The notes beneath the pieces were generated by a model, which worked only from the letters and a program-made list of their open reading frames with translations, was not told the origin of the DNA and ran no database searches. Below, one piece after another: positions 1,795 through 61,577 of a stretch of DNA of 64,000 nt. The translations under genes were made by a program, and so were the position numbers. The stretch's first letter is position 1; each line of letters opens with the position of its first letter. The DNA is taken from positions 1-64,000 of the forward strand of contig JAEUIH010000038.1 of the NCBI GenBank assembly GCA_016795105.1, read 5' to 3'. The DNA comes from Planctomyces sp. GTDB taxonomy: Bacteria; Planctomycetota; Planctomycetia; Planctomycetales; Planctomycetaceae.

Positions 1795-4700
1795 TCAGTT
1801 TGAGATTTCGCCTGATGCCCTGGCATCTGCGGAGCGCCGAGCGGGCGGATCGGTCGATTCTTTGGTGTCGCCGGTGAGCGTCAATGGGACGGCGGGACCA
1901 ATCGGGGGCACAGTGGTGATCCGAGTGACGCTTAAGTCATCGAGCTGGACTTCTCCCATACCATTGAGTGCTGCGGAGATGGTGAACGTGTTGCTGCCAG
2001 GCGCAATTTCCCGCACCATTTCAAATGACTGCCACTCTGATTCGAGCCGGAATCGGAGTCCTGATTCGGGCCCCAGCTCCGAATCAAAGATCAACAGAGG
2101 AAGTGGAACCTGCGACTGTATCGAACGTCCGCGACGAAATCGCCCACGAATTCGTATGATTTCTCCACCCTGCACCGCCACGGCCGGAGACGTAACCACA
2201 ATCGGGGTGACTTCAAATGACCGAACCAGTGGTTCGCCCTGTGGCGAATTTGGCAGCCACGCTGACATTCGAAGGACAGAATTTCGTTGAGAACCTTCGG
2301 TGACGACATCAGCAGAGCATGTATAGCCGGAATCAGACGCCTCATCAAATCGCCATCCACTGGTGCTGAGCTCTCGCAGGTTTTCAAAACTTCCCGTGGG
2401 CAGCTGGTTGATTGATTCGCGAGCATTGGTGTCGGCCATGCGGGCTCGCATTTCGAAATGGGAAGGCAGCGTCATGAATGAAACGGTATGAGGATAAGAG
2501 ACTGGAGAATCCACTCCTTTCATTGCAGCCTGCCATGCAAGTACCTGAATCTGTCTCAGATACTGCAGCGATGTTCTCGCGTAGTCTGCTGTTTCAGGGT
2601 AGTCCTTTTGCCGAAACTGTTCCTGAGCACGGTCGTTTGCTTCCTGAGCGAGGGCAAACAGCCGATCTGCTTCCGGAGGAGCACCGTTATATTCCCTGAG
2701 TATCTCTACAGTCTGGAGGACTCGACGATACTTCAGCGACGACAGGCGAGTGAGAATCTCGGCAGCTCGTCCGGAGATTTGATGAATTCTCTCCTCCATC
2801 GATCGAAGCATGCCAAGATCAGAGGCGACAACAACCATTGCACTTCGATCAAAGTTTTTAAGAGTCACTTTCAGGCCACCCGCGCGAACTTCTCTCGGCA
2901 ACCCGCGAATTCCAGTTGTTGAAATGAGATATGGTGACGCCGTCTCTGAAGCAGCCACAACCAGACTCAATTCCGGAGAGTACATCGTCGAAGGCACGAA
3001 CTGAGACGTCTTGTCCCAGTGTGTGACCAGGATCAGCATCGAGCCACCGGCAGTGATCACTGCCGCATCGGGCCCTTCAGGCTGTTCAAGCCCCATCACA
3101 CTTGCGGAAAGTCGCGGGCTGCTGAATGCCTGCTGAAGCCAGGGCTGCTTATTGTTTTTTAGCGAATCCTTCAGCGAACCTTTTCCAACCTCAGGCTCCT
3201 TAGGCTGCATGCTCAAATGAGTATCGACTCGTCCTCGGGCCAGAAATGGCTCAATCAACATCAATTCCAGATTCGCCAGCTCAATCGCCAGAAGGGTTTC
3301 TTCGTCGAGAGGATTCTGTGGATCGAATTGACGAGTTTTCCAGTAACCGACGCCTTTACATCCCGAAGACATTGCTGCGTTCACCTGAAGCAGGATCTGT
3401 TCGGGCTCCACAAACGGCATTGGTGACGACATTCGCTCACGCCATTGCTGTTGAAAACCAGACGGTTCAACCTGAACCCAGGTCCACGGAGCTGACAGTT
3501 GTCCGGCGGTTCTGTGCCGGCGAAACAACTGATTACGGAGTTCCCCAATCGATTCTGCGCGTCCAATCACATGCCGGCCAATACCAACCAGATCGATCTC
3601 TCGAGAAACCACCCCTTCAAGTCCGATCACATCCGCCATCTGAACACGATCCAGATTTCGGTCTGCGCTTCGAGTCTCCCTGGACCAGGCCAGAAAATGC
3701 GGCAGCTGATCGGGCGCAATTCGCGTTCCCATGTACCATGCTGAAGCGTTCGGACAGACAACGTCCAGCGGCGGAAGTGAACTCAACAACTGAAACTGTT
3801 TGCCTGGCTCGAACTCCGGATGCGGAGGGGTCGCTAAGACAGCAAGACCACTTTCATAGAGGGCCCTGGCACGGTCAGTCTCCCGACAGTCCGGAATCCA
3901 AACTGAATTCAACTTCAACTGCTCAACCAGATCCATCGATTCACCGTGGTCCGGAAGGAATCTGAGCAGCACCGGCTTTTTGTTTAGCAGAATCTGGTTC
4001 AACTCAACCTGCAACGGAACAAATTGCAATGTCGAATCCTGAGACATGTCGGATGTGACAGACGACACGGGGACGATCGGGACCGTGACCGAAGACGGAA
4101 TTGCAACTTCCGGACCCGATCGTGATTCCCCCACATCAACGAATGTTTCGCCGGAAACAGTCTCCACCAGCAACACGATTCCGCTGACAATTGGCTGACG
4201 AACATCCAAATCCGATCGATGCAGTTCCGCTCGCAACAACCTCAATTGAGTTTCCAGTCGTCGCATCGGATCCGAAAATCTCAATGTCTGCCATTCACCC
4301 TCGCGCTTGTAACTGTCTCCTTCAAGCAATGTCTCCAGTGGTTGCCTCGTTCGTGGATCCAGTTGATGAGGAAACACGACTCGTAAAGCCACTCGCACGC
4401 CCGGTCGCGTCGCCTGGATCTGCACCGATGCGTTGTACTCTTCATGAAGCAGCGAAGGTGTCACGAGCGAAGAAATCTGCACTGTCTCAGCGGTGCCATC
4501 ACTCGTGATCTGAAATCGCTCAATCGTTCTCGAGCGTTCCACAATCCGGGATGCAACAACCCGATTTTCCGGACGCTTCGCCTGCCCCTGCCATTGAGCA
4601 GTTCCCGGTACACTGGCGACCTCGGTCGTTCCTGGTACCGACCTCAAACCTACACGTGATCCGGACTGCTGCGGACCCTGGCTGCGTCCTTCTGATCGAT

Positions 4701-4839
4701 TCTGTCCGAAACACTGTGCCGGTGCGTAAAGGGACGGCGCAAAGAGCACGCACGCAATCAGCGCCGGCGCAAAGATCACCGAGCCTGCCATGATCGACAG
4801 GACCAAAACCCGACGCACAATGAAACACATGCCAACCAT
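1795..4839 (-). CDS. Large secreted protein with TIM-barrel-like middle and C-terminal carbohydrate-binding-like domain
   Basis: The 1014-residue product starts with an N-terminal hydrophobic export segment (residues 8-35), followed by a low-complexity Gln/Ser/Arg linker. Residues about 90-240 look like a beta-sandwich. Residues about 290-560 resemble a glycoside-hydrolase-type TIM barrel (NKKPVLLRFLPDHG, LKLNSVWIPDC, GLAVLATPPHP, CKGVGYWKTRQ), but I see no certain catalytic pair. A helical stretch (about 720-800) and a jelly-roll-like end (SGWRFDEASDSGYTCS to GMGEVQLDDLSVTRI) complete it, and that end resembles carbohydrate-binding modules. The function is unknown; an extracellular or periplasmic polysaccharide role is inference. 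It is transcribed alone. Confidence 0.75.
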   Translation of the reverse strand: MVGMCFIVRRVLVLSIMAGSVIFAPALIACVLFAPSLYAPAQCFGQNRSEGRSQGPQQSGSRVGLRSVPGTTEVASVPGTAQWQGQAKRPENRVVASRIVERSRTIERFQITSDGTAETVQISSLVTPSLLHEEYNASVQIQATRPGVRVALRVVFPHQLDPRTRQPLETLLEGDSYKREGEWQTLRFSDPMRRLETQLRLLRAELHRSDLDVRQPIVSGIVLLVETVSGETFVDVGESRSGPEVAIPSSVTVPIVPVSSVTSDMSQDSTLQFVPLQVELNQILLNKKPVLLRFLPDHGESMDLVEQLKLNSVWIPDCRETDRARALYESGLAVLATPPHPEFEPGKQFQLLSSLPPLDVVCPNASAWYMGTRIAPDQLPHFLAWSRETRSADRNLDRVQMADVIGLEGVVSREIDLVGIGRHVIGRAESIGELRNQLFRRHRTAGQLSAPWTWVQVEPSGFQQQWRERMSSPMPFVEPEQILLQVNAAMSSGCKGVGYWKTRQFDPQNPLDEETLLAIELANLELMLIEPFLARGRVDTHLSMQPKEPEVGKGSLKDSLKNNKQPWLQQAFSSPRLSASVMGLEQPEGPDAAVITAGGSMLILVTHWDKTSQFVPSTMYSPELSLVVAASETASPYLISTTGIRGLPREVRAGGLKVTLKNFDRSAMVVVASDLGMLRSMEERIHQISGRAAEILTRLSSLKYRRVLQTVEILREYNGAPPEADRLFALAQEANDRAQEQFRQKDYPETADYARTSLQYLRQIQVLAWQAAMKGVDSPVSYPHTVSFMTLPSHFEMRARMADTNARESINQLPTGSFENLRELSTSGWRFDEASDSGYTCSADVVTEGSQRNSVLRMSAWLPNSPQGEPLVRSFEVTPIVVTSPAVAVQGGEIIRIRGRFRRGRSIQSQVPLPLLIFDSELGPESGLRFRLESEWQSFEMVREIAPGSNTFTISAALNGMGEVQLDDLSVTRITTVPPIGPAVPLTLTGDTKESTDPPARRSADARASGEISN

Positions 4840-4898
4840 GAAACATCCGTGTTTAGATTGGTTTACAACTCTGCCCGCAGCAGGAATTCGTGATCAAA

Positions 4899-4922
4899 GA
4901 ATGATAACAATTCTTGTCATTC
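4899..4922. promoter_or_regulatory. 24-bp imperfect palindrome in divergent intergenic region
   Basis: GAATGA at the left and TCATTC at the right are exact inverse complements. The interior pairs as well except at two symmetric positions, giving 10 of 12 matched pairs. It lies about 60 bp before the start of the secreted-protein gene and about 220 bp before the small plus-strand gene, which suits a dimeric regulator site. The rest of the 4840-5142 gap shows nothing I recognise. Confidence 0.4.
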
Positions 4923-5142
4923 AGATGGAGTCCAAATCGCCAACCGAAACCCACATACCGCAAACACCCCATATTCACATCTGTCAGAACAGTGAAGGTC
5001 GCCGACCAGCCTGAAATGGAACTCACAATTTTCTGTCAGAAGACGGAGAAATCCTTGAGACCAGTGGATCTGATGCACAGAATCGACATCCATACGACTC
5101 TTCAAATTGCCAACCGCGATCCCCCTCATCCGGATTTCAGAT

Positions 5143-20018: not shown

Positions 20019-20861
20019 ATGGTAATCGAAGATATTGACTCACTGGATGATTCCCGTCTGGATGTTTATCGGGACCTCAAAACACGAAACGTTGTCCGTG
20101 ACGCGAATTTGTTTATCGCTGAGGGACCAACCGTTGTTGAACGACTGTTGCGAAGTCGTTTTGAAGTGCAGAGTGTGCTGATCAGCGAACGCAAGATGGA
20201 GAGCTTCGGCGATCGACTGCCGGCAGATATCCCCATCTATCGACTGCCCCACTCTCTGGCCCAGCAGCTCGTAGGTTATTCGTTCCACAGTGGAGTTATG
20301 GCAAGTGGAGTCCGCCAGACACTGGTCTCGCTGCCTGTGGAGCCGGAGGAGCGTCTATCTTCTGAAAACAGAAAGCTGATTCTTGCCGGAGATCGAATTG
20401 TTGATCCAGAGAATGTTGGGGCACTGATTCGGATCGCTTCAGCATTTGGAGCGGCGGCTGTGATCTTTGGACCTGGAAGCGCCGACCCGTTTTCGCGACG
20501 AGTCCTGAGGGTCTCCATGGGCAACGTCCTGTTTTTGCCGGTCGTTGAAACCCCGGATCTACCCGCAGAACTTGCCCGCCTAACTTCCCTGAACTACGAA
20601 GTCTGTGCGACGATCCTTGATCCTCTCGTCACTCCACTGCATGAGCACAATTTCCATGATCACACGGCCCTTGTGTTTGGCAACGAGTACGATGGTGTGT
20701 CGGCAGAAGTCCTGGCGAGTTGCCGGAAGCGACTTACCATTCCAATGCTGAACGGGACCGATTCCCTGAACATCGCTGTGTCAGCCGGGATTTTCGCACA
20801 CGCATTTCGTGCTCAGCATTATTCTCCCGTGCAGCCGTCTGAACCTGGCCCCAGCCGATAA
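20019..20861 (+). CDS. SPOUT (TrmH/SpoU-type) RNA 2'-O-methyltransferase
   Basis: A 280-residue protein. The N-terminal RNA-binding/substrate domain is seen as VYRDLKTRNVVRDANLFIAE and FHSGVMASG. The C-terminal knotted SPOUT domain carries motif 1 DPENVGALIRIASAFGA, motif 2 ALVFGNEYDGVS and motif 3 IPMLNGTDSLNIAVSAGI. These transfer a methyl group from S-adenosylmethionine to ribose 2'-OH in rRNA or tRNA. The motif 1 Asn-x-Gly-Ala-x-x-Arg is intact, so it should be active. The target nucleotide cannot be assigned. It is 11 bp upstream of the acylphosphatase gene. Confidence 0.9.
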   Translation: MVIEDIDSLDDSRLDVYRDLKTRNVVRDANLFIAEGPTVVERLLRSRFEVQSVLISERKMESFGDRLPADIPIYRLPHSLAQQLVGYSFHSGVMASGVRQTLVSLPVEPEERLSSENRKLILAGDRIVDPENVGALIRIASAFGAAAVIFGPGSADPFSRRVLRVSMGNVLFLPVVETPDLPAELARLTSLNYEVCATILDPLVTPLHEHNFHDHTALVFGNEYDGVSAEVLASCRKRLTIPMLNGTDSLNIAVSAGIFAHAFRAQHYSPVQPSEPGPSR

Positions 20862-20872
20862 GGAACTTTCAT

Positions 20873-21151
20873 ATGGCGGACGACGTTTGTGAGCGAGTGG
20901 TTTTTGCGGGGTTGGTTCAGGGGGTCGGATTTCGCTGGACAACGGAGCGATACGCGCGTCGCCGATCGCTGTGCGGAACCGTCCGAAACCTGCCAACGGG
21001 AGAGGTGGAAATGTACGTGACGGGTCCATCGAGCGAGATCGAGGGTCTGATTGGGGACCTGAATCAACACTTTTCCGGACAGATTCGGTCAATTGAGCGT
21101 GCGATTCCGGAGGAAAAAGTGGAGTTTTCCGATTTTCGGATCCTCAGATAG
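20873..21151 (+). CDS. acyP: Acylphosphatase
   Basis: A 92-residue stand-alone acylphosphatase. The phosphate-binding loop VFAGLVQGVGFRWTTERYA carries the catalytic Arg, and the conserved Asn is in GTVRNLPTGEVEMYV. It hydrolyses the carboxyl-phosphate bond of acyl phosphates such as carbamoyl or 1,3-bisphosphoglycerate. It shares its fold with the N-terminal domain of HypF, which is encoded at 53-55 kb in this window. It probably shares a transcript with the methyltransferase and is followed by a likely terminator. Confidence 0.95.
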   Translation: MADDVCERVVFAGLVQGVGFRWTTERYARRRSLCGTVRNLPTGEVEMYVTGPSSEIEGLIGDLNQHFSGQIRSIERAIPEEKVEFSDFRILR

Positions 21152-21331: not shown

Positions 21332-22324
21332 GTGTTGAATTTTGTCGGAATGCTGGCTCAGCAGGAAACGGTTGTTGAAGCGGAACCAACCAGTTGGTTA
21401 TTCGCCTGGATCTTTGTATTTGTAGCAGCCGCCGGACTCGTTGCATTTGCGTACGGAACGCGAGGGGGAGTCATTGCGAGGGCGACCACCAAGGAAGCGA
21501 TCCGACAGCCGCTGTTCCCATTGATTCTGGTGATCTCGATCGCAGTGCTTTGCCTGAACACCGTCATGCCATTCTTCACACTTGAAGACGACGTGAAGAT
21601 GCTCAAGGAATGTGGACTCGCCACACTGCTGATTTCAGGAGCACTGCTTGCGGTCTGGACAGCCGGAACGAGCATTACGAGCGAAATCGAAGGCAAGACA
21701 GCCATGACTCTGCTGTCGAAGCCCATCAATCGCCGTCAGTTTATTGTTGGCAAGTATCTGGGGATTGTGCAGACGGTCATCTGGTTGTTTGTCGTGTTGA
21801 CAATTGTGTTTGGCAGCCTGATTTTCATTAAGGTCGGGTATGACCAGCGAGAACGATCTGAAGAAGTAACTCCACGCTGGGAATGGAAGAAGATTGGCGG
21901 AACGTTTGATGTTCCGACCCCTCACCCGGAACGCATGAAAGTCGTGAATCAGGTATTGCCAGGTGTAGCACTCGCGTTTCTTCAGGTCTGTGTTCTGGCA
22001 GCGATCAGCGTTACCATTGCAACTCGACTTCCTATGATCTTCAATCTTGTCGCATCGTTTGCCGTGTTTGTGGTTGGGAACCTGACGCCTCTGATGGTTC
22101 AAAGAAGTGACACTGTGATTCAGAACGAAGTTGTCACCTTTATTGCTCGACTGATCGCCACAATTCTGCCATCTCTCGAAGCCTTTAATATTTCTGCTGC
22201 CGTGTCAACGGGTGCCGAGGTTCCTCCGTCATATCTTGGGATCAGCTTTCTCTATGCGGCCGCCTATTCTACAGCAATGATCCTGCTTGGATTCATTCTC
22301 TTTGAAGACCGCGACCTTGCGTAA
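21332..22324 (+). CDS. ABC-2 type transporter permease
   Basis: The product has 330 residues from GTG 21332, with GAGAGGA nine bases upstream. It has six or so hydrophobic segments (for example SWLFAWIFVFVAAAGLVAFAY, LFPLILVISIAVLCLNTVM and LVASFAVFVVGNLTPLMV). The EIEGKTAMTLLSKPINRRQFIVGKYLG stretch is characteristic of ABC-2 permeases of the NosY/YfiM type. No ATP-binding partner with intact motifs lies beside it; the ABC protein downstream is an exporter-type fusion, not a matching cassette. The substrate is unknown. Confidence 0.88.
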   Translation: MLNFVGMLAQQETVVEAEPTSWLFAWIFVFVAAAGLVAFAYGTRGGVIARATTKEAIRQPLFPLILVISIAVLCLNTVMPFFTLEDDVKMLKECGLATLLISGALLAVWTAGTSITSEIEGKTAMTLLSKPINRRQFIVGKYLGIVQTVIWLFVVLTIVFGSLIFIKVGYDQRERSEEVTPRWEWKKIGGTFDVPTPHPERMKVVNQVLPGVALAFLQVCVLAAISVTIATRLPMIFNLVASFAVFVVGNLTPLMVQRSDTVIQNEVVTFIARLIATILPSLEAFNISAAVSTGAEVPPSYLGISFLYAAAYSTAMILLGFILFEDRDLA

Positions 22325-22519: not shown

Positions 22520-24412
22520 GTGGCAGAATCCAACTCCCCGATTACTCAGAAGCTGTTTTCTCTGAGCATGTTTTTTCGGGCGCGTCTGCTGCCGGCATTG
22601 GCATTTGGCATTCTGTCCGCCACCCTGCTGGTCGTGGCTATTGGTGCCGCTGGCCTTGGCGCCGAAATTCTGGCGTCCTCTGCTGCAACAAACCCTGCAG
22701 ACGCCGCTAAGACAGGAAGCACGGGCCTTGGGACATTCCTGAAGCGGCTGGAGACGACACCGTTTTCTGCTGCCGCCGTCCGAGTTCGCGCTGACTTCCC
22801 ATGGTTACTCGATGGGCTTCGCTCATTCTATCTGGTCACCTTGATCATTGCGTTCTGCCTTCCGCTTCGCTGGCTGTTGTCGTCCGGAGCGATGTCGTTC
22901 GTCCAGCACCACTGCGCAACAGAAGTTCAGAAGCTTAGGCAGGCAATTCACCGAAAGGCCATTCGCCTCGAGCCCGCAGACTTAACTGCTGAACATTCAC
23001 GATCCACGGATCGACTATTTGGAGAGACCGCAACGGAACTGGAAGCCTGTGCGAGTGACTGGGGGCAGCGATGGATTTCCGGGCTTCCCGATCTGGTAAT
23101 GTGCCTGACCCTCGCGTTGGTCGTGGATTGGCGAATCGGACTACAGGTCATCATACCAGTGATCCTTTGCTGGTTCGTTCTCGGACTTGAGTTCCGTCGA
23201 ACCGAATCTTCGTCTCGATTGCTTCTTGAACAGGTGGATCGAGGTCTGCGACGACTTGCAGAGAGCCTGCGAAAAGCCAGAATCGTTTGTGGATTTTCGA
23301 TGGAGCAAACAGAACAGCATGAATTCGAAAAGAACCTGAATCAATATCAGCAGCGGAAGAGATTACTTGAGCACCAAACGCGCTCCGGCTGGTGGGCCAG
23401 GCGATTCCTGCTGCTGTTCTGCGTTGTGGTTCCAGGCATGCTGCTGGCTCGGCAAATTCTGGTCCATGGCCGACTGTCCGTTGCTGCGGCGGTGATCATT
23501 GGACTGTGCGCATTGTTCGTCTATCGAAGTCTTACAACACTTCGAAGTACGGGACAAAGTTATGTAGAAGCCATCGAGAAAGTCGAAGAAATCGGAGCAT
23601 ATATTTCTCGGGTTCCCCTGGTGAGTCAGGTCGCCGGAGCCAGATTCCTGGAACCGATGACTCGCAGTCTGCAGTTTGATCAGGTGAATCTCAGCATGCC
23701 TCAGCAGCCTGCCCTTCTCAGAAACCTGGACCTCCGAATCAGCGCCGGTGAAAGAATTGCGTTGCTGTCGCTCAATCCAGTATCTGCCTACGCGCTTGCA
23801 AGTATGATCCCCCGATTCGCCGACCCCGACTCAGGACAGGTTTTGATCGATGGTCAGGATATTCGACAAACGACGCTGGAATCGCTGAGAGCGGAAGCGA
23901 TCTTCGTTGGAGGAAACGACTCTGTTTTCAACGCCACCGTGCTCGAGAATATCTCCTGTGGCCAGGCCGACATTACTCGACAACAAGTGCAGGATGCCTG
24001 CAAACTGGTTCATGCAGACAACTTCATTCGCCAGTTGCCGAAGGGATATGAGGCCGTTGTCGGCGAACATGGACTTCCACTAGACGTTGGGCAGGCGTTC
24101 CGATTGAGTCTGGCCCGCGCGGCAGTACGTCAACCTGCGATTCTGATGATCGAAGAACCCGACGCGGTTCTCGATCAGGAAACAAAGGCCATGCTGGACG
24201 ATGCCTATCAGCGGCTTTGTCAGGGACGAACCGTCATCTTTCTTCCGACACGTCTGTCAACAGTGAAACGATGCAGCAGGATCGTGTTCATTCACGAAGG
24301 CCGAGTCGTTGCGGATGGGCCCCATGAGTCGCTGGTTCGGTCGAACGATCTGTACAGGCACTGGGAGTATATCCACTTCAATGAATTCAGGACCGACGCG
24401 GTGGCGGAGTAA
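22520..24412 (+). CDS. ABC exporter-like protein with degenerate nucleotide-binding domain
   Basis: A 630-residue protein with an ABC type-1 exporter layout: membrane helices in residues 1-340, then an ABC cassette. The cassette aligns along its length (SAGERIALLSLNPVSAYALASMIPRFADPDSGQVLIDGQDIRQ) but its motifs are broken. Walker A has no GxGKS/T and no lysine (SLNPVSAY). The Q-loop reads IFVGGNDSVFN. The signature is LDVGQAF rather than LSGGQ. Walker B keeps a Glu (ILMIEEPD). The H-loop His is Thr (FLPTRLST). The frame is intact with no stops. It is probably unable to hydrolyse ATP alone; it may be a half-site partner or a non-transport sensor. Confidence 0.85.
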   Translation: MAESNSPITQKLFSLSMFFRARLLPALAFGILSATLLVVAIGAAGLGAEILASSAATNPADAAKTGSTGLGTFLKRLETTPFSAAAVRVRADFPWLLDGLRSFYLVTLIIAFCLPLRWLLSSGAMSFVQHHCATEVQKLRQAIHRKAIRLEPADLTAEHSRSTDRLFGETATELEACASDWGQRWISGLPDLVMCLTLALVVDWRIGLQVIIPVILCWFVLGLEFRRTESSSRLLLEQVDRGLRRLAESLRKARIVCGFSMEQTEQHEFEKNLNQYQQRKRLLEHQTRSGWWARRFLLLFCVVVPGMLLARQILVHGRLSVAAAVIIGLCALFVYRSLTTLRSTGQSYVEAIEKVEEIGAYISRVPLVSQVAGARFLEPMTRSLQFDQVNLSMPQQPALLRNLDLRISAGERIALLSLNPVSAYALASMIPRFADPDSGQVLIDGQDIRQTTLESLRAEAIFVGGNDSVFNATVLENISCGQADITRQQVQDACKLVHADNFIRQLPKGYEAVVGEHGLPLDVGQAFRLSLARAAVRQPAILMIEEPDAVLDQETKAMLDDAYQRLCQGRTVIFLPTRLSTVKRCSRIVFIHEGRVVADGPHESLVRSNDLYRHWEYIHFNEFRTDAVAE

Positions 24413-24836
24413 CGTTGCTGAGGGGATTTCCACCCAGTCGCTGAGCAGCCGTCACAGGGTCCATGTTAAAGAGGACTCGCCCTCCCGTGCCCCACGCTCC
24501 GTTCTGGTAGTGAAAGACTGCTGAGGCGTCTCGAAGATCGCCGGCGGCAGCCACATTTTCCATATCACTTCCTTCAATCGCCTCGAAGGCTACGGAAACA
24601 CCTACCACCAAAGTCAGCAGTCCTGAACCAGGTTCCGTGAAGATTGCTCGCTGCTCCTGCCAGTCGCAACGCACCCATCGAAGTCCCCGGGGTTTCCCTG
24701 AGTTGGCAGCCAGTTCGAAGAATGACTTCTGGAGCTGCGCCGCGTGTCGGTCAAATCGCATTAATGCGACATCAGGCCCGGCACCACGAAGGCGCTGGAC
24801 GAACGAATTGAATGAGCTGAATATGGATCGAAACAC
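24387..24836 (-). CDS. Hypothetical protein, convergent with the ABC-like gene
   Basis: A 149-residue minus-strand frame from GTG 24836, overlapping the end of the ABC-like gene by 26 bp tail to tail. The composition looks coding: an amphipathic N-terminus, a globular beta-rich centre (PRGLRWVRCDWQEQRAIF, then GSGLLTLVVGVSVAFEAIEG), and AGDLRDASAVFHYQNGAWGTG near the end. It has no signal peptide or membrane segment and no domain that I recognise. The tail-to-tail overlap would let the two transcripts pair. Confidence 0.65.
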   Translation of the reverse strand: MFRSIFSSFNSFVQRLRGAGPDVALMRFDRHAAQLQKSFFELAANSGKPRGLRWVRCDWQEQRAIFTEPGSGLLTLVVGVSVAFEAIEGSDMENVAAAGDLRDASAVFHYQNGAWGTGGRVLFNMDPVTAAQRLGGNPLSNVTPPPRRS

Positions 24837-50519: not shown

Positions 50520-51581
50520 TCAACAAATTCGCGGCAGAGGTGCACCCGATGGTTCGTCGAGTGGCAGGTCAATGCCCATCGCCCGTCGAATTGTCACTGG
50601 GCAGCTGCCGGCTTCGCAGACTTTTCCAATCACGGTGGCACCTTCACATCCTGGTACCTGCCGCAGAAGGTCGACGACCGCTTTCGCCGAAGCTGAGTCA
50701 ACAGCAATGACGATCGTGCCCTCATTCGCAATATACAGCGGATCAAGTCCCAGAATCTCGCATGCACCCCGAACTTCGCGGCGAACAGGAATCCAGTTCT
50801 CCTCAAGCGAAATTGTCACCCTTCCGTCTTCCGACCATTCATGAAGAACTGCCGAGACACCGCCCCTTGTAGCGTCTCGAACGCATCGAACTGCGTTTTC
50901 AGAGCATTGTCGAACGGCATGCATCATGGACTGAACAGAACCCGAATCACTCTTCACCGGTAGTTCCGTCTGCAGGATCCCTCTGGCATTCAACATCGCG
51001 ATACCATGCCGCCCGATGTCACCTGAAACAACAATACTGTCTCCAGGCCTCAGGAAGGCTGGCCCAGGTGGCACCGGTGAAACCAACTCCCCAACACCAG
51101 CGGTATTAATAAACAGCTGATCGACACATCCTTTGGGGACTACTTTCGTATCGCCTGCAATAATTTCAACACTGCATCGTCGAGCAGCCTCGGCGGCACT
51201 TTCGAGAATTGCTTCAAGGAGGGTTAGAGGCAGCCCTTCTTCTATCATGAGTGAAAATGTAAGCCATCGCGGCTCTGCACCCGCGACAACAAGGTCGTTG
51301 ACTGTACCGTAGATCGACAGCGAACCAATGTCACCACCGGGGAAGAACAATGGAGAAACCGTATAGCTGTCGGTCGTGACAGCAATTCGAGCATCTCTCA
51401 GCGAACGAATGGCTGCATCACCGAATTCGGATGAACTCCCCGAGTCGCGAAATCGTGACGTAATCGTATCCCGAATCAATCGTCGACTCAAACGCGCTCC
51501 TTCACCATGAGCCAGCAACACCTGACCTGCTGTCCCAGCCATGGGTATCGGACACTGGGCGGACCATTCGAAGGAGTTCAT
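50520..51581 (-). CDS. hypE: Hydrogenase maturation factor HypE
   Basis: A 353-residue PurM-like ATPase that dehydrates the carbamoyl group placed on its C-terminal Cys by HypF, making the thiocyanate donor of the Fe cyanide ligands. The C-terminus is PRIC, which is the essential ending. The ATP-binding blocks FGDAAIRSLRDARIAVTTDSY, GTVNDLVVAGAEPRWL and IIAGDTKVVPKG are typical. It is the last gene of the hydrogenase operon, 21 bp after hypD and 16 bp from the convergent phosphoesterase stop. It is intact, so a complete Hyp set is present. Confidence 0.97.
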   Translation of the reverse strand: MNSFEWSAQCPIPMAGTAGQVLLAHGEGARLSRRLIRDTITSRFRDSGSSSEFGDAAIRSLRDARIAVTTDSYTVSPLFFPGGDIGSLSIYGTVNDLVVAGAEPRWLTFSLMIEEGLPLTLLEAILESAAEAARRCSVEIIAGDTKVVPKGCVDQLFINTAGVGELVSPVPPGPAFLRPGDSIVVSGDIGRHGIAMLNARGILQTELPVKSDSGSVQSMMHAVRQCSENAVRCVRDATRGGVSAVLHEWSEDGRVTISLEENWIPVRREVRGACEILGLDPLYIANEGTIVIAVDSASAKAVVDLLRQVPGCEGATVIGKVCEAGSCPVTIRRAMGIDLPLDEPSGAPLPRIC

Positions 51582-51602
51582 CTCAAAGTTCCCACAAACA
51601 AA

Positions 51603-52730
51603 TCAAGACCCAATCGATCTCAAGCGATAACGGAACCAGGCAGCACAGGCGCCTTCGGACGACACCATTGGTGCACCGAGCGGATGTTCCGGTGTACATC
51701 CACTTCCGAATTCACCACATGCGCATGGCTGAATCCGCCCGGAAAGAACTTCACCTGCTCGACACGTCGAGAAAATAACCGGAGTAACGGCCTTGCCACT
51801 GGCTTCCGAGGCCTTTCCGGATTGTTCCGGAAATCGGAACTCGGCATCAAACTCCCGGTACTCTTCTCGAAGCCGAAATCCGCCCTCGCACAGAACACCA
51901 AGTCCGCGCCATCGACTCTCGCAGACCTCATACACATCATCCACAACGGACTGAGCATTCCTGTTTCCTTCAAGCGCTACAGACCGTCCAAAGCAATTGG
52001 CGACTCCGGATTTCTGATGTTCGAGACGGTCCACACATTCTGCGATGCCCAACAACAAATCAACCGGCTCGAAACCAGTAACAACCACAGGCACACCCCA
52101 GCGTCCTGCAAAGTCTTCATAGGGGGCAAAGCCTGTCACGCAGCAAACGTGCCCTGCGGCGAGGAAACCTTCAACACGATTTGCTTCGCTGGCCATGATT
52201 AACTCCATCGCCGGCTGAACCCGCACATGGGATACAAGCAATGAAAAATTCCGGAGTCCCCTCTTCTTTGCCTGAAGTACGGCGAGCGATGTCGCCGGCG
52301 CCGTTGTTTCAAATCCCACGGCGAAAAACACAACGTGCTGATCGGGGTTTTCCGCGGCATAAGTCACCGCATCCGTCGGCGAATAGAACTCTCGAACACT
52401 TGCACCCTCGGCTCTGGCTGCCGCAAGAGACAGACTCGTCCCGGGGACTCGCAACATGTCACCAAACGATGCCAACAGAATTCCGGGTGTCATTGAAAGT
52501 CGGACCGCACGGTCGATCTTCGCTTCGTCGGTCACACAGACCGGACACCCAGGTCCGTGAATCAGTTCAATGGTATCCTCCAGCGCCAAATCGATTCCGT
52601 GGCGCAGAAGTCCGTGAGTCTGCCCCCCGCAGACTTCCATAATCACCCAGCGTCGAGTCGTCTGTCGGCGAATCTGGTCAAGAAGAGATCTCGCTCGCGA
52701 GGGATCGCGAAATTCGTCAACGTGCTTCAT
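51603..52730 (-). CDS. hypD: Hydrogenase maturation factor HypD
   Basis: A 375-residue iron-sulfur protein that forms the HypCD complex on which Fe(CN)2CO is built. The conserved Cys-rich motifs are IMEVCGGQTHGLLRHGI, IHGPGCPVCVT, AGHVCCVTGFAPYEDFA and the C-terminal FSTCRAGEVLSGRIQPCACGEFGSGCTPEHPLG. Its start codon shares a base with the hypC stop (TAATG), so translation is coupled to hypC, its direct partner. Confidence 0.97.
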   Translation of the reverse strand: MKHVDEFRDPSRARSLLDQIRRQTTRRWVIMEVCGGQTHGLLRHGIDLALEDTIELIHGPGCPVCVTDEAKIDRAVRLSMTPGILLASFGDMLRVPGTSLSLAAARAEGASVREFYSPTDAVTYAAENPDQHVVFFAVGFETTAPATSLAVLQAKKRGLRNFSLLVSHVRVQPAMELIMASEANRVEGFLAAGHVCCVTGFAPYEDFAGRWGVPVVVTGFEPVDLLLGIAECVDRLEHQKSGVANCFGRSVALEGNRNAQSVVDDVYEVCESRWRGLGVLCEGGFRLREEYREFDAEFRFPEQSGKASEASGKAVTPVIFSTCRAGEVLSGRIQPCACGEFGSGCTPEHPLGAPMVSSEGACAAWFRYRLRSIGS

Positions 52731-53020
52731 TAGTTCAGTTCCTCAGCCTCGCCCACTGCCTCGCCCACTGCGTCGCTCCCGCCAGACTCATGGAACTCTG
52801 CAAGAGACCGGAGCTCCTCAAGAGTTCGCAACGCCTCCTGCTCATTGACGCGTGCAATCGCTATTCCAGCATGAACGATGACAAAATCTCCGATGTTCGC
52901 CTCCGGAACACAGGCCATCTGGATGCGACTTCGAATCCCTTCAAACTCAACCAGAGCACACGCCGAGACTGATTCTCGACAAATCCACTCGATGACTCGT
53001 CCCGGAATTCCCAGACACAT
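52730..53020 (-). CDS. hypC: Hydrogenase maturation chaperone HypC
   Basis: A 96-residue HypC/HupF chaperone beginning MCLGIPGRVIEW, with the essential Cys2. It carries the Fe(CN)2CO unit with HypD to the large subunit. The core ends by IGDFVIVHAGIAIARVNEQEAL. The tail (ESGGSDAVGEAVGEAEELN) is longer than usual and contains an AVGE duplication. It lies 18 bp after hypF and is coupled to hypD. Confidence 0.96.
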   Translation of the reverse strand: MCLGIPGRVIEWICRESVSACALVEFEGIRSRIQMACVPEANIGDFVIVHAGIAIARVNEQEALRTLEELRSLAEFHESGGSDAVGEAVGEAEELN

Positions 53021-53038
53021 AGTGTGCTCTCAACTCTG

Positions 53039-55411
53039 CTACACAAACAGTTGACTCGTGGTTACCACATATTGCCCAACAGAAAGACCTCCGTCATTCG
53101 GGGGAATCCAACCCGGAAGGTGCAGCCTGCTCCGATCTGTCCCCGCTTCCCCGAGAATCCATTCTGTCAGAATTCGATTCTGAAAACAGCCTCCGGATAT
53201 AACGACATCGAGATCATGGTATGTCCTCGCAAATCCGAGAACGATTCGTGCTACAGCTCGATGAAAACGAGCAGAGATCACGCCTGCAGTTCTTCCTGAC
53301 TGGATGTCCATTACAACCTGTCGAATCATTGGACGCCAGTCGATCCAGTCAACCCCGCTGTTCGAAGTCATCACGGGAAACTCATAGCTTCCCGGATCGG
53401 CCCGATCACAGAGTGTCTCCAGCATGAGGGCCAGCTCACCGTCGTAGTCAGCTCGACTAATTCCCGTTACAAGGCTGGCAACCCCGTCGAAGAGCCGCCC
53501 CATACTTGACGTCATCACAGAGTGTTCGAGTATTTCACTCTGGAGTGCAGATGTGATCGGACAGTAACCATCAACTGCAAGGGGTATCCGTTCATGGCAT
53601 CCCCGGTTCCGTTCGCGCAGGAACTCCGCGACCACGCTTGCCGACCATTCCGGAAATGCACTGCGTAGCAAACTGCCTGCAATACGCCAGACCTCTCGAA
53701 CCGCCCTTTCCCCACCTTGCAACGCAAATGGAAGCAAACCTGCGATCCGTTGGGATTCTCTCCGCGTTGCGATGAGTAATTCTCCGCCCCAGATTGTTCC
53801 ATCGTCGCCAAGTCCTGTCCCATCAAATGCCACACCGAGGACTGTTCGATCGAGTAATGAGTGCTCCAGCATACCAGCTGCCACGTGAGCATGATGATGC
53901 TGAACCCGATGGACTCTCACACCCTGCCCTTCTGCCCATTGAGACGTAAAGTAATCCGGATGCAGATCACAGGCGATGACTTCGGGCCGACATCCATACA
54001 ATTCCATCAGAGACTGTACTTCGTTTCGATAGCGGTTCCGGGACTCCAGCGTTCGCAGGTCGCCAATATGAGGACCGCTGACTGCCTGCTGTCCGTTGGA
54101 AACAACAATCGCAACTTTCTGCTCTCCCCCAACAGCCAACAACGAATGTCCCTGAGCGAGCAATGGCAGTGTCGCTGGTGCAAGTCCTCTGCCTGAACGA
54201 ACCGTAACAGAACGACCGCCAACAACTCGCACAACACTGTCATCGACTGGTCGGATAATCGTACGGTTGTGTTTCAGACAACCGTCGGCCACACCCCTCA
54301 GATCCTCAATTGCTGACTCATCAGAGTACTCAATCGGTTCGCCATCCCGATTTCCACTTGTCACGACCAGAGGTCGCCTGACCTTCTCAATGAGTATTGC
54401 GTGAAGAGGAGAGGAAGGCACCATCAACCCCAACGCTCCGTTCCCGTGAACAACCGATGCGGCGAGGTCAGCAACCTCAAATTCTTCTGCGATCACAATC
54501 GGATTTGCACGGGACAGACAGGCTTCGACAGCAGTACCGCCATTCGAATAGTTCTTCATAAAGTCTGAAACGCTCACCATAACGGCCAGAGGTTTACGCA
54601 TCCGATTCTTCGCCAATCGAAGCCTGCAAACCGCTGTTTCGTTCGTGGCATCACAGACGAGCTGATAACCACCAATGCCTTTCAAAAGGAGAATTCCGCC
54701 CGCCGACAAGAGCTCTGCACCTGAGTCCAGAGCAGATTCAGCATTTGTAAATTCCTGCGGACACTCGTCTCCACCCTGCCAGCGGATATACTCAATGTCA
54801 GGTCCGCAATCTGCACAGGCAATTGTCTCTGCATGGCATCTGCGGTCTTGCGGATCATCAAACTCTTCCTGACACTCACTGCACAACGGAAACTCGTTCA
54901 ATGATGTGAACTGACGGGAATACGGCATACCGTAAAGGACGCTGTACCGCGGTCCACAAGTCGCACAACCTGTCAAAGCATACTGGAATCGCCGATTTGA
55001 ATTCTCCTCGATATCCCTCAAACAGTCCCTGCAGATGACTGTATCCAATGGCACTTCAGCCAGGAGTGGTCCGCTTGATTCAACAGTAAGAATCCGAAAC
55101 TCGTGAAATCCCCTCGCAGGAATCTTTGTCATCCTTATGTCACGAATACTTGCCCCATGTGGAAGAACCTGAAGCAACATTTGCTTCCACGTTGCGATAT
55201 TTCGTGGGCTTCCCTCAATCTCAACTCGAATGCCATCGCGAGTGTTACAGACGCTTCCGAAAAGCAGCAGAGAATCAGCCAGCCCGGCAATGGCGGGTCG
55301 AACCCCAAGTCCCTGAAGTCTCCCTCGTATGTCTATCTGCCAGGACTCGACTTCGCTTAGAGACGCCTCTCCTGAGTCTGCAGACTCAGGAGACTCAGGA
55401 GACGCGTCCAT
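53039..55411 (-). CDS. hypF: Carbamoyltransferase HypF
   Basis: A 790-residue protein that makes carbamoyl-adenylate from carbamoyl phosphate and ATP and transfers it to HypE. Domains in order: acylphosphatase (IDIRGRLQGLGVRPAIAGLA), two CxxC-type zinc fingers (CRDCLRDI, CATCGPRYS, CSECQEEF and CADCGPDIE), YrdC-like (RLAKNRMRKPLAVMV), and a Kae1-like domain with VQHHHAHVAAGMLEH and VAFDGTGLGDDGTIWGG. The first 20 residues (MDASPESPESADSGEASLSE) are low-complexity and overlap the end of hypB by 17 bp. A later start is possible, but the catalytic domains are complete. Confidence 0.96.
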   Translation of the reverse strand: MDASPESPESADSGEASLSEVESWQIDIRGRLQGLGVRPAIAGLADSLLLFGSVCNTRDGIRVEIEGSPRNIATWKQMLLQVLPHGASIRDIRMTKIPARGFHEFRILTVESSGPLLAEVPLDTVICRDCLRDIEENSNRRFQYALTGCATCGPRYSVLYGMPYSRQFTSLNEFPLCSECQEEFDDPQDRRCHAETIACADCGPDIEYIRWQGGDECPQEFTNAESALDSGAELLSAGGILLLKGIGGYQLVCDATNETAVCRLRLAKNRMRKPLAVMVSVSDFMKNYSNGGTAVEACLSRANPIVIAEEFEVADLAASVVHGNGALGLMVPSSPLHAILIEKVRRPLVVTSGNRDGEPIEYSDESAIEDLRGVADGCLKHNRTIIRPVDDSVVRVVGGRSVTVRSGRGLAPATLPLLAQGHSLLAVGGEQKVAIVVSNGQQAVSGPHIGDLRTLESRNRYRNEVQSLMELYGCRPEVIACDLHPDYFTSQWAEGQGVRVHRVQHHHAHVAAGMLEHSLLDRTVLGVAFDGTGLGDDGTIWGGELLIATRRESQRIAGLLPFALQGGERAVREVWRIAGSLLRSAFPEWSASVVAEFLRERNRGCHERIPLAVDGYCPITSALQSEILEHSVMTSSMGRLFDGVASLVTGISRADYDGELALMLETLCDRADPGSYEFPVMTSNSGVDWIDWRPMIRQVVMDIQSGRTAGVISARFHRAVARIVLGFARTYHDLDVVISGGCFQNRILTEWILGEAGTDRSRLHLPGWIPPNDGGLSVGQYVVTTSQLFV
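55369..55392. repeat. 24-bp perfect palindrome at the hypB/hypF junction
   Basis: CTCCTGAGTCTG is followed directly by its inverse complement CAGACTCAGGAG, and ACTCAGGAG is then repeated once more (55393-55401). It lies inside the first codons of hypF, just past the hypB stop. It could fold in the messenger near the initiation region. Confidence 0.7.
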
Positions 55412-56099
55412 CGACGACTTCTCCTCGCCGGCGTTCCGGATTCAGATGCTGCATTCGATAATGTTCCAGATAATCACACAGCTGTTCGACGCCGTTCCCG
55501 GAGATGGCGCAGGTCACAAACGAGCTGAGAGTCGGCTGAATCCGCTGAGCATCTTCAATTGCAGCCTCCACCCGAAACGGTACATATGGCAGGAGATCCG
55601 ACTTTGTGATCACCATGATTTGACTGGTACGGAACATCTTCGGGTATTTTCCAGGCTTATCGTCTCCCTCCGTCGAACTCAACGCCACAACGCGAAGATG
55701 CTCACCAAGATCATGTGATGCCGGGCAAACAAGGTTACCGACGTTTTCAATCACCAGAACCTCGAATGGCTGGGACGGCAACTTCCGCAACCCATGCTGA
55801 ACCAGCGACAACTCAAGATGGCAAGCGCCTCCAGTCGTCAGCTGTTCGACAGGAACAAGCGGTCTGAGTCTCTCGGCATCGCGATCTGTAGCGAGATCTC
55901 CCACGAGGACTCCCATACGCACACGACCGCTCCAGTAACGCGCCATCGACTGCAGCAAACTGGTCTTTCCCGCTCCGGGAGAAGAAACCAGATTGATCAC
56001 GAGTATCCCCTGTTCAGTCCATTCTCTGCGCTGTAATTCCGCAGCAGCGCGTCGATCTGCCAGAACATCCTGATTTACGTTGATCGTCTTCATCGGCAT
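55395..56099 (-). CDS. hypB: Nickel-insertion GTPase HypB
   Basis: A 234-residue GTPase that drives nickel delivery with HypA. The P-loop is LVSSPGAGKTSLLQ, the metal-site block is LTTGGACHLELSLV, the switch is VIENVGNLVCPASHDLG, and the guanine motif is VITKSDLLPYV. It has no His-rich or CCxxC nickel-storage N-terminus (MPMKTINVNQDVLADRRAAA), so it is a minimal form. ATG 56099 shares a base with the hypA stop; an ATG two codons in is also possible. Confidence 0.96.
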   Translation of the reverse strand: MPMKTINVNQDVLADRRAAAELQRREWTEQGILVINLVSSPGAGKTSLLQSMARYWSGRVRMGVLVGDLATDRDAERLRPLVPVEQLTTGGACHLELSLVQHGLRKLPSQPFEVLVIENVGNLVCPASHDLGEHLRVVALSSTEGDDKPGKYPKMFRTSQIMVITKSDLLPYVPFRVEAAIEDAQRIQPTLSSFVTCAISGNGVEQLCDYLEHYRMQHLNPERRRGEVVDGRVS

Positions 56100-56470
56100 C
56101 AGATAACTCCGGAATTTTCCGGTTCAGGAAGTTCGAGAACAACACTCAGAAGTCGGACACTGTCACCACTGATGACATGCAACCGTCTTCCTTCACATTG
56201 AGGACAGACAAAACGAAAATCTCTGACCTCAGATTCTGAACCACAATCTTCACAACATGCTGTGAGCAACGACACTGTCACGTTCAGACTCGCGGCCGGA
56301 AATGCCGACTGACCGACTAACCGCTTGAATGCGGAGAATAGCAGCTCCGGCTCAACACCGCTCAACGTGCCGATCTCGACATTGATCTCTCTGGCGGTAA
56401 CACCACAGTTCTTCTCAACCAGCCTGTCCACCTGCTGAAACAGACCTCTTACGAGGGACTCTTCATGCAT
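56099..56470 (-). CDS. hypA: Nickel metallochaperone HypA
   Basis: A 123-residue protein starting MHEESLVRGLFQQVD, whose His2 and N-terminus bind nickel. The zinc site is two CxxC pairs (CCEDCGSESE and CPQCEG). It hands nickel to HypB for the large subunit. It overlaps the upstream protease gene by 22 bp, a larger overlap than elsewhere in the operon, and touches hypB. Confidence 0.96.
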   Translation of the reverse strand: MHEESLVRGLFQQVDRLVEKNCGVTAREINVEIGTLSGVEPELLFSAFKRLVGQSAFPAASLNVTVSLLTACCEDCGSESEVRDFRFVCPQCEGRRLHVISGDSVRLLSVVLELPEPENSGVI

Positions 56471-56985
56471 TCCAGCACCCCCTGCTGAGCGATCAGACTG
56501 GCTCGCACCTCCGTGCTCAACGATTCGATCACTTCATTTGCGGCATCAACAACCCGATTCGCAATTTCAGTTCCTGGTTCAAATTGACTCGACTCAACTG
56601 CCCAGACCACAACACGAGACGGTAGCTGACCAAGTCGCCTCGCAAGATCAAGAACATCAGGAAGGCTCCAGCCATGAGTTCCGGATGCGTGGCGAGTAAC
56701 GATTCTTAGCGAATTATCGGCGCCCGTACCTTCTGCTGTATCGGAGCAGTCAATTCTCCGCCAGCAGGGACCTGCAAAGTCTGACGCACAGGCATCGACT
56801 ACGTGAAGCGTTTCAAAGTCACCGATCCAGTTCATGAGATCCAGCGGCACCTGAGCTGTCCTGACACGAACCTCGGCAGACTCAATTCCGGTTTCAATGA
56901 GACGTCGTGCAACGTACCACCCGACACGATCATCACCATGAAAGCTCCCGACTCCCACGATTAGAATTCCACCTCTGCTACTCAT
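56449..56985 (-). CDS. Hydrogenase maturation endopeptidase (HycI/HyaD family)
   Basis: A 178-residue protein that removes the C-terminal tail of the large subunit after nickel insertion. The conserved ligands for probing nickel are in GVGSFHGDDRVGW (Asp), LHVVDACAS (Asp) and RHASGTHGWSLPDVL (His). It starts with a 4-bp overlap on the large-subunit gene, so enzyme and substrate are made together. The C-terminal 25 residues are less typical. Confidence 0.93.
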   Translation of the reverse strand: MSSRGGILIVGVGSFHGDDRVGWYVARRLIETGIESAEVRVRTAQVPLDLMNWIGDFETLHVVDACASDFAGPCWRRIDCSDTAEGTGADNSLRIVTRHASGTHGWSLPDVLDLARRLGQLPSRVVVWAVESSQFEPGTEIANRVVDAANEVIESLSTEVRASLIAQQGVLECMKSPS

Positions 56986-58280
56986 GAGTGGCGATCCACT
57001 GTCAGCTTAAGAAAGTGAGTTGAACAACTGATACAAGGGTCGTAGCTCCGAATGAGTCGTTCACATTCATCAGCAGTGTGAGCATCGTCGTCAGTGAGAA
57101 TCCGGGGCAACCATTCTCGCAGGTCTTCTTCAATTTGTCTTTGGTTCTGAGATGTAGGTGGAACAATCTTCGCGAGACCAACCTTCCCTTTGCTGTCAAC
57201 CTGATATCGATGATAGATTAACCCGCGAGGAGCCTCCGTGGCTGCACAACCTTCTCCGTCCTGGTATGCATAACTCATCCTCGCCGGTTTCAGTATTTTC
57301 AGTGATTTCAGAATCTCCAGTCCTTCTTCGAATGCATGCACCAGCTCAAGCCCCCGAGCGATGATTGCCTTAAACGGGTTCAAACACGGAATCGCAAATC
57401 TGATTTCATCGGCAACTTTCCGGGCAGATTCTGATAATCGATCGCGATTCAGGTTGACTCGGGCGAGTGGACCAACGTGGTAACAGGCGTCGTTAGAAGT
57501 TCTCAGTGAATGGAGTGCTGTGCTGTGAGCGACGTGGTGCTCGGCGAATTCCTTTTCGTAGTCCTCCACTGGAATCCGCTGACCGGCAGTCGAAGCCACG
57601 ACCCCTTCGTTCATTGGATATTCATCAGGATGCAGCAATGAGACCATTTCGTAGCTGCGCGAGAAATCAGGAAACGGGAAACCGGCAACCCATCTGGTGG
57701 CATCGATTGCAGCCTGAAGGCCCCATTCAAACTTCGGAATCAATAATTGCAGGTCATCAATACGCGGAGCTCTGTAGAATCCTCCAACAGCGACATTGAT
57801 GGGGTGAATGGCCCGGCCGCCGAGGATTTCCAACAAGTCGTTTCCTAGTTTCTTCAACTGCAGCCCGCGTTGAATCTCCTGGGGGAATTTCTCCGCAAGT
57901 TCGATCCCGCTGGCAGCACCAAAGAAATCCGGTGCCTGCAGAAGGTGCATATGCAGACCGTGGCTCTCAATCCATTCTCCGCAATACAGCAAACGTCGCA
58001 GGCGACGAATATCTGCGGTAACCCGCACGTTCAGTGCCTGTTCGAGCGCGTGTACCGCACTCATCTGGTAGGCCACCGGGCAGATTCCACAAATTCGTGC
58101 GGTGATGTCCGGTACGTCTTCAAGAGATCGACCTCTCAGAAACGCTTCAAAGAAACGTGGTGGCTCATAGATTGTCAGTTTCACATCTTCAATGACACGA
58201 CCAGCCATTCGAACATACAATCCGCCTTCGCCCTCAACACGAGAAAGTGCTTCAACTCGAATTGTCCGTTCTTCAGACAT
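56982..58280 (-). CDS. hydA: [NiFe] hydrogenase large (alpha) subunit, group 3b-like
   Basis: The start ATG 58280 gives MSEERTIRVEALSRVEGEG, overlapping the small-subunit stop by 8 bp; the 74 codons upstream belong to the small subunit region. The product has 432 residues. The nickel ligands are all present: L1 ARICGICPVAYQ and L2 YDPCISCSTH. A short tail (FLKLTVDRHS) follows the L2 His and is the likely piece removed by the protease. The conserved RGLELVHAFEEGLEIL and AATEAPRGLIYHRY blocks fit cytosolic bidirectional enzymes. It catalyses reversible H2 oxidation linked to NAD(P). Confidence 0.96.
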   Translation of the reverse strand: MSEERTIRVEALSRVEGEGGLYVRMAGRVIEDVKLTIYEPPRFFEAFLRGRSLEDVPDITARICGICPVAYQMSAVHALEQALNVRVTADIRRLRRLLYCGEWIESHGLHMHLLQAPDFFGAASGIELAEKFPQEIQRGLQLKKLGNDLLEILGGRAIHPINVAVGGFYRAPRIDDLQLLIPKFEWGLQAAIDATRWVAGFPFPDFSRSYEMVSLLHPDEYPMNEGVVASTAGQRIPVEDYEKEFAEHHVAHSTALHSLRTSNDACYHVGPLARVNLNRDRLSESARKVADEIRFAIPCLNPFKAIIARGLELVHAFEEGLEILKSLKILKPARMSYAYQDGEGCAATEAPRGLIYHRYQVDSKGKVGLAKIVPPTSQNQRQIEEDLREWLPRILTDDDAHTADECERLIRSYDPCISCSTHFLKLTVDRHS

Positions 58281-59100
58281 GTTGCGAACCTTCGGATTCT
58301 CTGGCGTCTGCTGAGGAGAGCCTGTCTGATACAGCAGCAAACTGCGGAGCTGCCGCGTTGAAGTTTCGAAGGAGCGGAAGTAGTACCTCTGATGTATGAC
58401 CAACGGACTGGTAGTGATCGACGAGCCCATCGCAGTTCGCCTGCATGACGGGACCAAAACACCCATAACAGCCTCGGTTGAAGTCAGGACAGATTGCACC
58501 ACAACCGGAATGGGTTACAGGACCAAGACACGGAATTCCCTGAGCCACTTCAACACAGACCGTCCCGCGAATCTTGCAGTCAAGGCACACCGAATGGTTC
58601 GGAATCCGGGGTTTTCTTCCGGCAGCCAGCGCAATAATCACCTCAAGCAACTGGTGTCGATTGATCGGGCAGCCTCTAAGTTCGAAGTCTACCGGGATGT
58701 GGGCTGAAATTGGTGTTGAAGTCGCAAGACTCGAGATGTATTCAGGGCTGGCATACACACATTTCAGAAACTCCTCGTGGTTTCCCCAGTTCCTGAGCGA
58801 TTGAATTCCACCTGCGGTGGCACAAGCACCTATCGTGACTACTACAGCCGACTGTTGACGAACGAATTGAATCCGTTCAACATCATGCGGAGTCGTAATC
58901 GACCCTTCGACCAGGGACACATCATACGGTCCCTCGCGCATGTCACTGCTCGCTTCAGGGAAGTACGCGATCTCAATCGCGCTCGCGACACTCAGCAATT
59001 CATCTTCACAGTCCAACAGGGACAATTGACATCCATCACAGGATGCAAATTTGAAGACGGCCACTCGGGGCTTCTTTGGCCGACCAGCATTGGACGCCAT
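58273..59100 (-). CDS. hydD: [NiFe] hydrogenase small (delta) subunit
   Basis: The start ATG 59100 has AAAGGTG upstream; GTG 59124, overlapping the gamma stop, is the alternative. The product has 275 residues. The proximal cluster Cys set is KFASCDGCQLSLLD, TIGACATAGGIQ and ELRGCPINRHQLLEV. Two further [4Fe-4S] sites are suggested by CLDCKIRGTVCVEV, CLGPVTHSGCGAICPDF and GCYGCFGP. It has no twin-arginine signal, so it is a soluble cytoplasmic enzyme. It passes electrons between the nickel site and the gamma subunit flavin. Confidence 0.95.
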   Translation of the reverse strand: MASNAGRPKKPRVAVFKFASCDGCQLSLLDCEDELLSVASAIEIAYFPEASSDMREGPYDVSLVEGSITTPHDVERIQFVRQQSAVVVTIGACATAGGIQSLRNWGNHEEFLKCVYASPEYISSLATSTPISAHIPVDFELRGCPINRHQLLEVIIALAAGRKPRIPNHSVCLDCKIRGTVCVEVAQGIPCLGPVTHSGCGAICPDFNRGCYGCFGPVMQANCDGLVDHYQSVGHTSEVLLPLLRNFNAAAPQFAAVSDRLSSADARESEGSQHV

Positions 59101-59120
59101 GGATGTGTCACCTTTGCCAC

Positions 59121-61098: not shown

Positions 61099-61577
61099 CG
61101 CGAATCGCCCCCCGGACGGAAGAGATCCAGCAGTTGAAGCCGAGTCGCCAGAATGCGTTGAGAAAGGACACGAGCAAGACGAATCATCAGCACATATCCC
61201 AGTTGAGGATCTGTTTCGCAGAGTTCGCGTACTCGTTTTCCTGAAAGTGCCACAAGAACACAGTCATCTGCAGCAACCGCAGTAGCCGTCATTCGGCCAT
61301 CCGAAATCAGCCCGGACCAGCCGACCAAATCTCCTGGACCTGAAGTGAGCAAAACAACGTTCCCCCTGCCAGGGACTGACATTGAGAGGCGAACATGGCC
61401 GGATGATATGACAAATACCTCATCTTCCAGTTCGCCTTCCTGAAACAGAATTGTTCCTGCAGGCAGACTATGAACACGCGAAGCACGACACAGAGACTGC
61501 AACTGTTGATTATTCAGATTCTCTGTGAACCGGGATTCTGACAGCATCTTGAGTATATTTGGCTGCTGATGAATCAT
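61095..61577 (-). CDS. Cyclic-nucleotide-binding-domain protein of the hydrogenase operon
   Basis: The start ATG 61577 overlaps the CoA-transferase stop by 4 bp (ATGA). The product has 160 residues. The Crp/Fnr-type sensor fold has LPAGTILFQEGELEDEVFVISSG, GPGDLVGWSGLISDGRMTAT and a C-terminal dimer helix (LGYVLMIRLARVLSQRILA). The helix-turn-helix of true Crp is absent, so it is not a DNA-binding regulator by itself. Such a gene directly ahead of hydB is a known companion of group 3b hydrogenases. It may gate the enzyme in response to a ligand. Confidence 0.9.
   Translation of the reverse strand: MIHQQPNILKMLSESRFTENLNNQQLQSLCRASRVHSLPAGTILFQEGELEDEVFVISSGHVRLSMSVPGRGNVVLLTSGPGDLVGWSGLISDGRMTATAVAADDCVLVALSGKRVRELCETDPQLGYVLMIRLARVLSQRILATRLQLLDLFRPGGDSR

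Follow-up and report, generated by a model that had tools for sequence, protein, structure and literature searches.

A stretch of 64,000 nucleotides of planctomycete DNA, referred to here as the window, carries on its forward strand (positions 22520 to 24412) a full-length ABC exporter gene in whose product most of the residues expected of an ATPase are replaced. Such a protein raises two questions, i.e., whether it is a gene in decay or one whose catalysis was lost under selection, and, in the latter case, what a permanently inactive exporter could be retained for. The first-pass annotation favored selected loss and proposed either a pseudo-transporter used for sensing or scaffolding or a heterodimer subunit that pairs with an intact half encoded elsewhere.

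Fold and nucleotide site of the exporter

The gene starts with GTG and runs without interruption for 630 codons. Both domains of a type IV (ABCB/MsbA-like) exporter are combined in its single chain by homology, with Pfam ABC_membrane (PF00664) at residues 186 to 326 (28.5 bits against a cut-off of 28) and ABC_tran (PF00005) at residues 400 to 548 (48.3 bits against a cut-off of 25). The AlphaFold2 model (mean pLDDT of 90.2, pTM of 0.78) represents a whole exporter half with six long helices and a nucleotide-binding domain (NBD), and the earlier description of a full-length exporter with a clean frame therefore holds. The transmembrane domain (TMD), delimited by the secondary structure of the model and by ABC_membrane, is encoded at 22580 to 23605 (+) (residues 21 to 362) and has a helical insert after TM1 (residues 57 to 97). 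The NBD fold, delimited by ABC_tran and the model, is encoded at 23666 to 24394 (+) (residues 383 to 625) and apparently lacks a usable nucleotide site; its P-loop has shrunk in the model to a short turn (strand at residues 412 to 417, helix at residues 420 to 429). The nearest structures according to Foldseek and VIA-align are ABCB10, MsbA, CmABCB1, TmrAB, and TM287/288, with VIA-align Z scores of about 30 over 560 to 580 residues, most of the chain. The best NCBIfam matches are MsbA-related models, all far under their curated cut-offs, e.g., 198 versus 602 bits and 226 versus 780 bits for the MsbA_lipidA and MsbA_rel equivalogs, respectively. An antisense open reading frame of 149 aa (24387 to 24836 [-]) overlaps the exporter gene at its 3' end by about 26 bp; this frame has no Pfam match and has a homologue near the degenerate exporter in 10 of 61 loci.

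Residue-level alignment with family members, 81 in all, located the losses precisely. The glycines, the lysine, and the Ser/Thr of Walker A are replaced by S417, P420, S422, A423, and Y424 in the segment SLNPVSAY (23768 to 23791 [+], residues 417 to 424), and none of the 81 proteins has the lysine and only two the first glycine. The Q-loop glutamine, which is absent from all 81, corresponds to G465. The signature reads LDVGQ (24080 to 24094 [+], residues 521 to 525) with D522 and V523, and its serine position is occupied by Asp in 62 and by Ser in 2 of the 81 sequences. In the H-loop FLPTRLST (24239 to 24262 [+], residues 574 to 581), T577 takes the place of the histidine, which persists in three family members, and at the A-loop position, where an aromatic residue is rare throughout the alignment, the window protein has M393. 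The losses that had been described for Walker A, Q-loop, signature, and H-loop are thereby confirmed. The wider statement that all ATPase motifs are broken was slightly overstated, since the catalytic-Glu position E546, which follows the Walker B residue E545 in the segment IEEP (24149 to 24160 [+], residues 544 to 547), is Glu in 81/81 members and 74/81 retain the D-loop Asp (D552). Measured against a functional ABC ATPase, the protein accordingly has the catalytic Glu and is devoid of GxxGxGK[ST], LSGGQ, the Q-loop Gln, and the H-loop His. The replacements are themselves conserved in the family alignment (VSLDPLEA, VGGxDP, LDxGQ, and FLP[ST]RLST). Because 81 homologues share the degenerate state, a chance origin of the motif loss is excluded, and the motif pattern indicates that the exporter probably no longer hydrolyzes ATP.

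Purifying selection and ancestry of the degenerate clade

Motif losses alone would speak for simple pseudogenization or a sequencing artifact, but the reading frames are open across 57 genera of the family, the sequences belong to one deep clade, and dN/dS lies far below 1, so that decay was rejected and retains a vanishingly small probability. Nei-Gojobori estimates of dN/dS ranged from 0.05 to 0.18 in unsaturated close pairs, which were drawn from other genera, the congeners of the window genome being too diverged. In most pairs, the values were lower for the degenerate cassette (often 0.03 to 0.07) than for the membrane domain (0.06 to 0.20), and the mean fraction of the majority residue in the family was 0.66 for the NBD versus 0.41 for the TMD. 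The whole exporter, and its cassette most of all, is under strong purifying selection. A search for the signs of pseudogenization named by the first-pass annotation, namely orthologues with an intact Walker A in close relatives together with an elevated dN/dS, came out negative; the same losses are instead fixed in the family (Walker A Lys and Q-loop Gln both 0/81), and its view that catalysis was lost under selection is supported.

Strong matches to the degenerate exporter occur in 158 of 170 genomes and 57 of 58 genera of the family to which the window belongs, and among the named carriers in public genomes are Fuerstiella, Gimesia, Schlesneria, Thalassoglobus neptunius, and Alienimonas chondri, which makes Planctomycetaceae the most likely family and Planctomycetia the most likely class. 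When 397 genomes of this class were searched with a profile, 33 degenerate members were added from other families (f2, f3, f4, f5, f6, f8, f14, f17, f18, and f19), none of which has an intact P-loop, and the clade hence extends over no fewer than eleven families in the class. A maximum likelihood tree of 80 sequences, calculated by a quick search after removal of the motif columns and without two very divergent members, contains a single branch that separates 56 degenerate from 24 intact exporters (SH-aLRT support of 100). The degenerate proteins make up a single ancient clade of half-exporters of type IV (ABCB/MsbA-like). Two still more eroded members that adjoin the permease described below were observed at loci L181 and L199, the latter also without the Glu position and with a score of only 96 bits.

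The order of the losses can be read from families f2, f3, and f8. Most of their members have a Walker A like VALVGPDDMEKHALVY, in which the lysine is present and the P-loop glycines are absent, and most also possess the Q-loop Gln (VLQHNLVF) and the H-loop His (FLPHRLST), while the signature is lost. The glycines and the signature were therefore probably lost first. A single ancestral loss of both near the base of the clade, followed by repeated losses of Lys, Gln, and His, would be the simplest reading. No published account of this family was found in the open-access literature on degenerate or pseudo ABC exporters, planctomycete and general, a scope outside of which most subscription papers fall.

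The linked ABC-2 permease and the search for a motor ATPase

Directly upstream of the exporter, at 21332 to 22324 (+), the window encodes an ABC-2 (NosY-like) permease of 330 aa with the nearly invariant coupling-type motif EIEGKTAMTLLSKPINRRQF and the C terminus FEDRDLA. It matches Pfam PF12679 with 28.2 bits (cut-off of 27.2), as do all 37 permease members (37/37), and EIEGKTAMTLLSKP together with the C-terminal FEDRDLA is almost invariant in the permease alignment. The similarity to NosY is weak in sequence (E = 0.007 against the PDB entry) and was also detected with the structural model (pLDDT of 84; Foldseek E value of 5e-4, TM score of up to about 0.5). Further upstream lies an acylphosphatase gene (20843 to 21148 [+]; PF00708, E = 8e-18), which is matched by a homologue in this position at 30 of 61 loci and is possibly a member of the operon.

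The permease gene precedes the degenerate exporter on the same strand in 57 of the 61 family loci; of the four exceptions (L057, L074, L084, and L089), three have the permease elsewhere in the genome, and in one it was not found. Within matched short flanks, it was present at 9 of 10 degenerate loci versus 0 of 20 loci of intact exporters from class genomes. The suggestion to look for a conserved partner gene proved right, but the neighbor it led to is an ABC-2 permease and not an intact exporter half, and among the conserved neighbors at the 61 family loci there is no intact exporter. The intergenic gap, taken up to the nearest upstream ATG, varies from 18 bp to several hundred base pairs (195 bp in the window), so that translational coupling is not a general feature.

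The permease was detected in 381 of the 397 class genomes and, with E values of up to 1e-25, in 163 of 392 genomes sampled across the phylum, some of which belong to the class. Linkage is absent in f8, most of f3, and a few f1 genera, and families f7, f9, f11, and f15 as well as most of f5 have the permease without the degenerate exporter, which the permease consequently does not need. In some other families (L216, L219, and L195), the permease carries about 200 additional N-terminal residues, and its locus is convergent to genes for a Gfo/Idh/MocA-like oxidoreductase and an LpxA-like protein. Both genes are absent from the locus in the window, and a possible link to lipid A was set aside.

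No ABC ATPase adjoins the permease in any of the class or phylum loci examined. A candidate encoded in the same genome as the window is P0002 (L304, positions 4016 to 4942 [-], on G000:C21), an ABC-2-type ATPase encoded apart from any obvious permease, which is present at high identity in 145 of 148 class genomes. Since G202 and G234 have the permease without P0002 and G082 has P0002 without the permease, its assignment as the motor is a lead only. The apparently orphan ATPase at L301 was discarded; it adjoins a ZnuA-like binding protein and, from a reading of the sequence, probably belongs to a metal importer.

Elsewhere in the window, the translated reading frames at 50520 to 61098 (-) suggest a NiFe-hydrogenase cluster with large, small, diaphorase-like, and FeS subunits, the maturation genes HypE, HypD, HypF, and HypB, and a maturation protease. 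The adjoining region (61095 to 63965 [-]) appears to encode a Crp-like regulator, an acetyl-CoA hydrolase-like protein, and a formate-THF-ligase-like protein.

Possible roles and relation to known ABC systems

Taken together, we consider it an even bet (a probability of about 0.5) that the degenerate exporter was exapted as a noncatalytic accessory subunit of the linked ABC-2 system, with which it would form a complex. After the presumed loss of ATP turnover, the protein would probably still dimerize via its exporter fold, the surface of the NBD fold would serve to hold or to regulate the permease, a separate stand-alone ATPase, or both, and this ATPase, encoded elsewhere, would supply the energy. 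This reading is supported by the fixed motif loss in one clade with low dN/dS, by the exporter fold with its collapsed P-loop, and by the permease, i.e., its upstream position in 57/61 loci, the contrast between 9/10 and 0/20 flanks, and its occurrence in 381/397 class genomes, with no adjoining ABC ATPase at the loci examined. It is weakened by the occurrence of the permease without the exporter in several families and by the unlinked genes in f8 and most of f3. Why a pure scaffold would need E546 in 81/81 members and the D-loop Asp in most of them is not obvious. A still broader proposal, in which the two genes constitute a class-wide module of mixed type IV and NosY-like architecture, with an ABC exporter as the permanent noncatalytic subunit of an unrelated ABC-2 permease and the ATPase encoded elsewhere, is tentative and rather doubtful at present.

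The proposal that the protein is a subunit deficient in catalysis, paired in a heterodimeric exporter with an intact half from another locus of the genome, draws on the well-known heterodimers of type I in which one site is degenerate (PMC7756269), on a structural model that matches TmrAB and TM287/288 in addition to homodimers, and on an intact L003-type exporter. Such a partner would be expected to be universal, and the L003 type was present in 80 of the 82 good genomes of the family, although co-occurrence by itself is no proof of pairing. Against the proposal, one and the same chain has lost both Walker A and the signature Ser (Asp in 62/81), so that neither composite site with an intact partner would be canonical, and the linked gene encodes an ABC-2 permease instead of an intact exporter. 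One near-complete genome (G001) has the degenerate exporter but gave no match of the L003 type at the chosen threshold, and a second, L004-type intact exporter occurs in only 56 of the 82 genomes. The heterodimer suggested by the first-pass annotation is weakened accordingly and appears unlikely. The genome of the window also contains a tandem exporter pair, L002 and L005 (G000:C88), in which the catalytic Glu and the H-loop residue of L002 are replaced by Asp and Asn, respectively; this pair is likely an ordinary heterodimer with one degenerate site.

Conservation of the altered pocket itself could point to a sensor or regulator that binds another ligand, e.g., a nucleotide held in an atypical manner, a lipid, or a small molecule. 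The invariance of E546, the conserved replacement motifs, and the stronger conservation of the NBD compared to the TMD are compatible with such a role, but the side chains that would contact phosphate and adenine have been lost and the phosphate positions are often occupied by Asp or Glu, which leaves it with perhaps a modest outside chance. An ATP-independent transporter or facilitator, i.e., a flippase, passive or driven by a gradient, that makes use of the membrane domain of the exporter, would account for the complete six-helix domain of the model and the near-invariant arginines R140, R145, and R149 in the membrane-domain region. We regard it as improbable, given that conservation is weaker in the membrane domain than in the cassette and that a function confined to it would not preserve the degenerate cassette so strictly.

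ABC exporters are usually viewed as ATP machines with both nucleotide sites intact or one of them degenerate. The homodimeric type IV exporters MsbA, ABCB10, CmABCB1, and Sav1866 share their fold end to end with the AlphaFold2 model (for MsbA 9fur, VIA-align Z of 29.7 and rmsd of 3.1 over 558 residues), but the degenerate exporter differs from them in the lack of Walker A, Q-loop Gln, LSGGQ, and H-loop His and in its linkage to an ABC-2 permease. A conserved and tolerated degeneration of a nucleotide site is likewise found in TM287/288, TmrAB, TAP, and CFTR/ABCC. In contrast to these heterodimeric exporters, which retain one canonical site (PMC7756269), Walker A and the signature are lost from the same chain here, and no intact half adjoins. 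The NosDFY system (permease NosY, ATPase NosF, and partner NosD) resembles the locus as an ABC-2 system with an additional partner protein, but no NosF-like ATPase adjoins the permease of the window and an exporter-fold protein takes the place of NosD. In SbmA/BacA-type proteins, an exporter-type membrane domain works without ATP and the cassette is absent, whereas the degenerate exporter has a cassette, and as its better-conserved half.

The loss of Walker A and signature in every member examined, in a cassette that is still selected, shows that the structural role of an NBD is separable from its catalytic one. The graded series from f2, f3, and f8, which mostly keep Lys, Gln, and His, to the family of the window, which has none of them, makes the order of loss readable, and the family supports an extension of the idea of selected loss to a class-wide clade. 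The finding also identifies an uncharacterized membrane module that is nearly universal in planctomycetes, a group with an envelope biology that still poses questions and with a transposon essentiality map for one species (PMC10632474).
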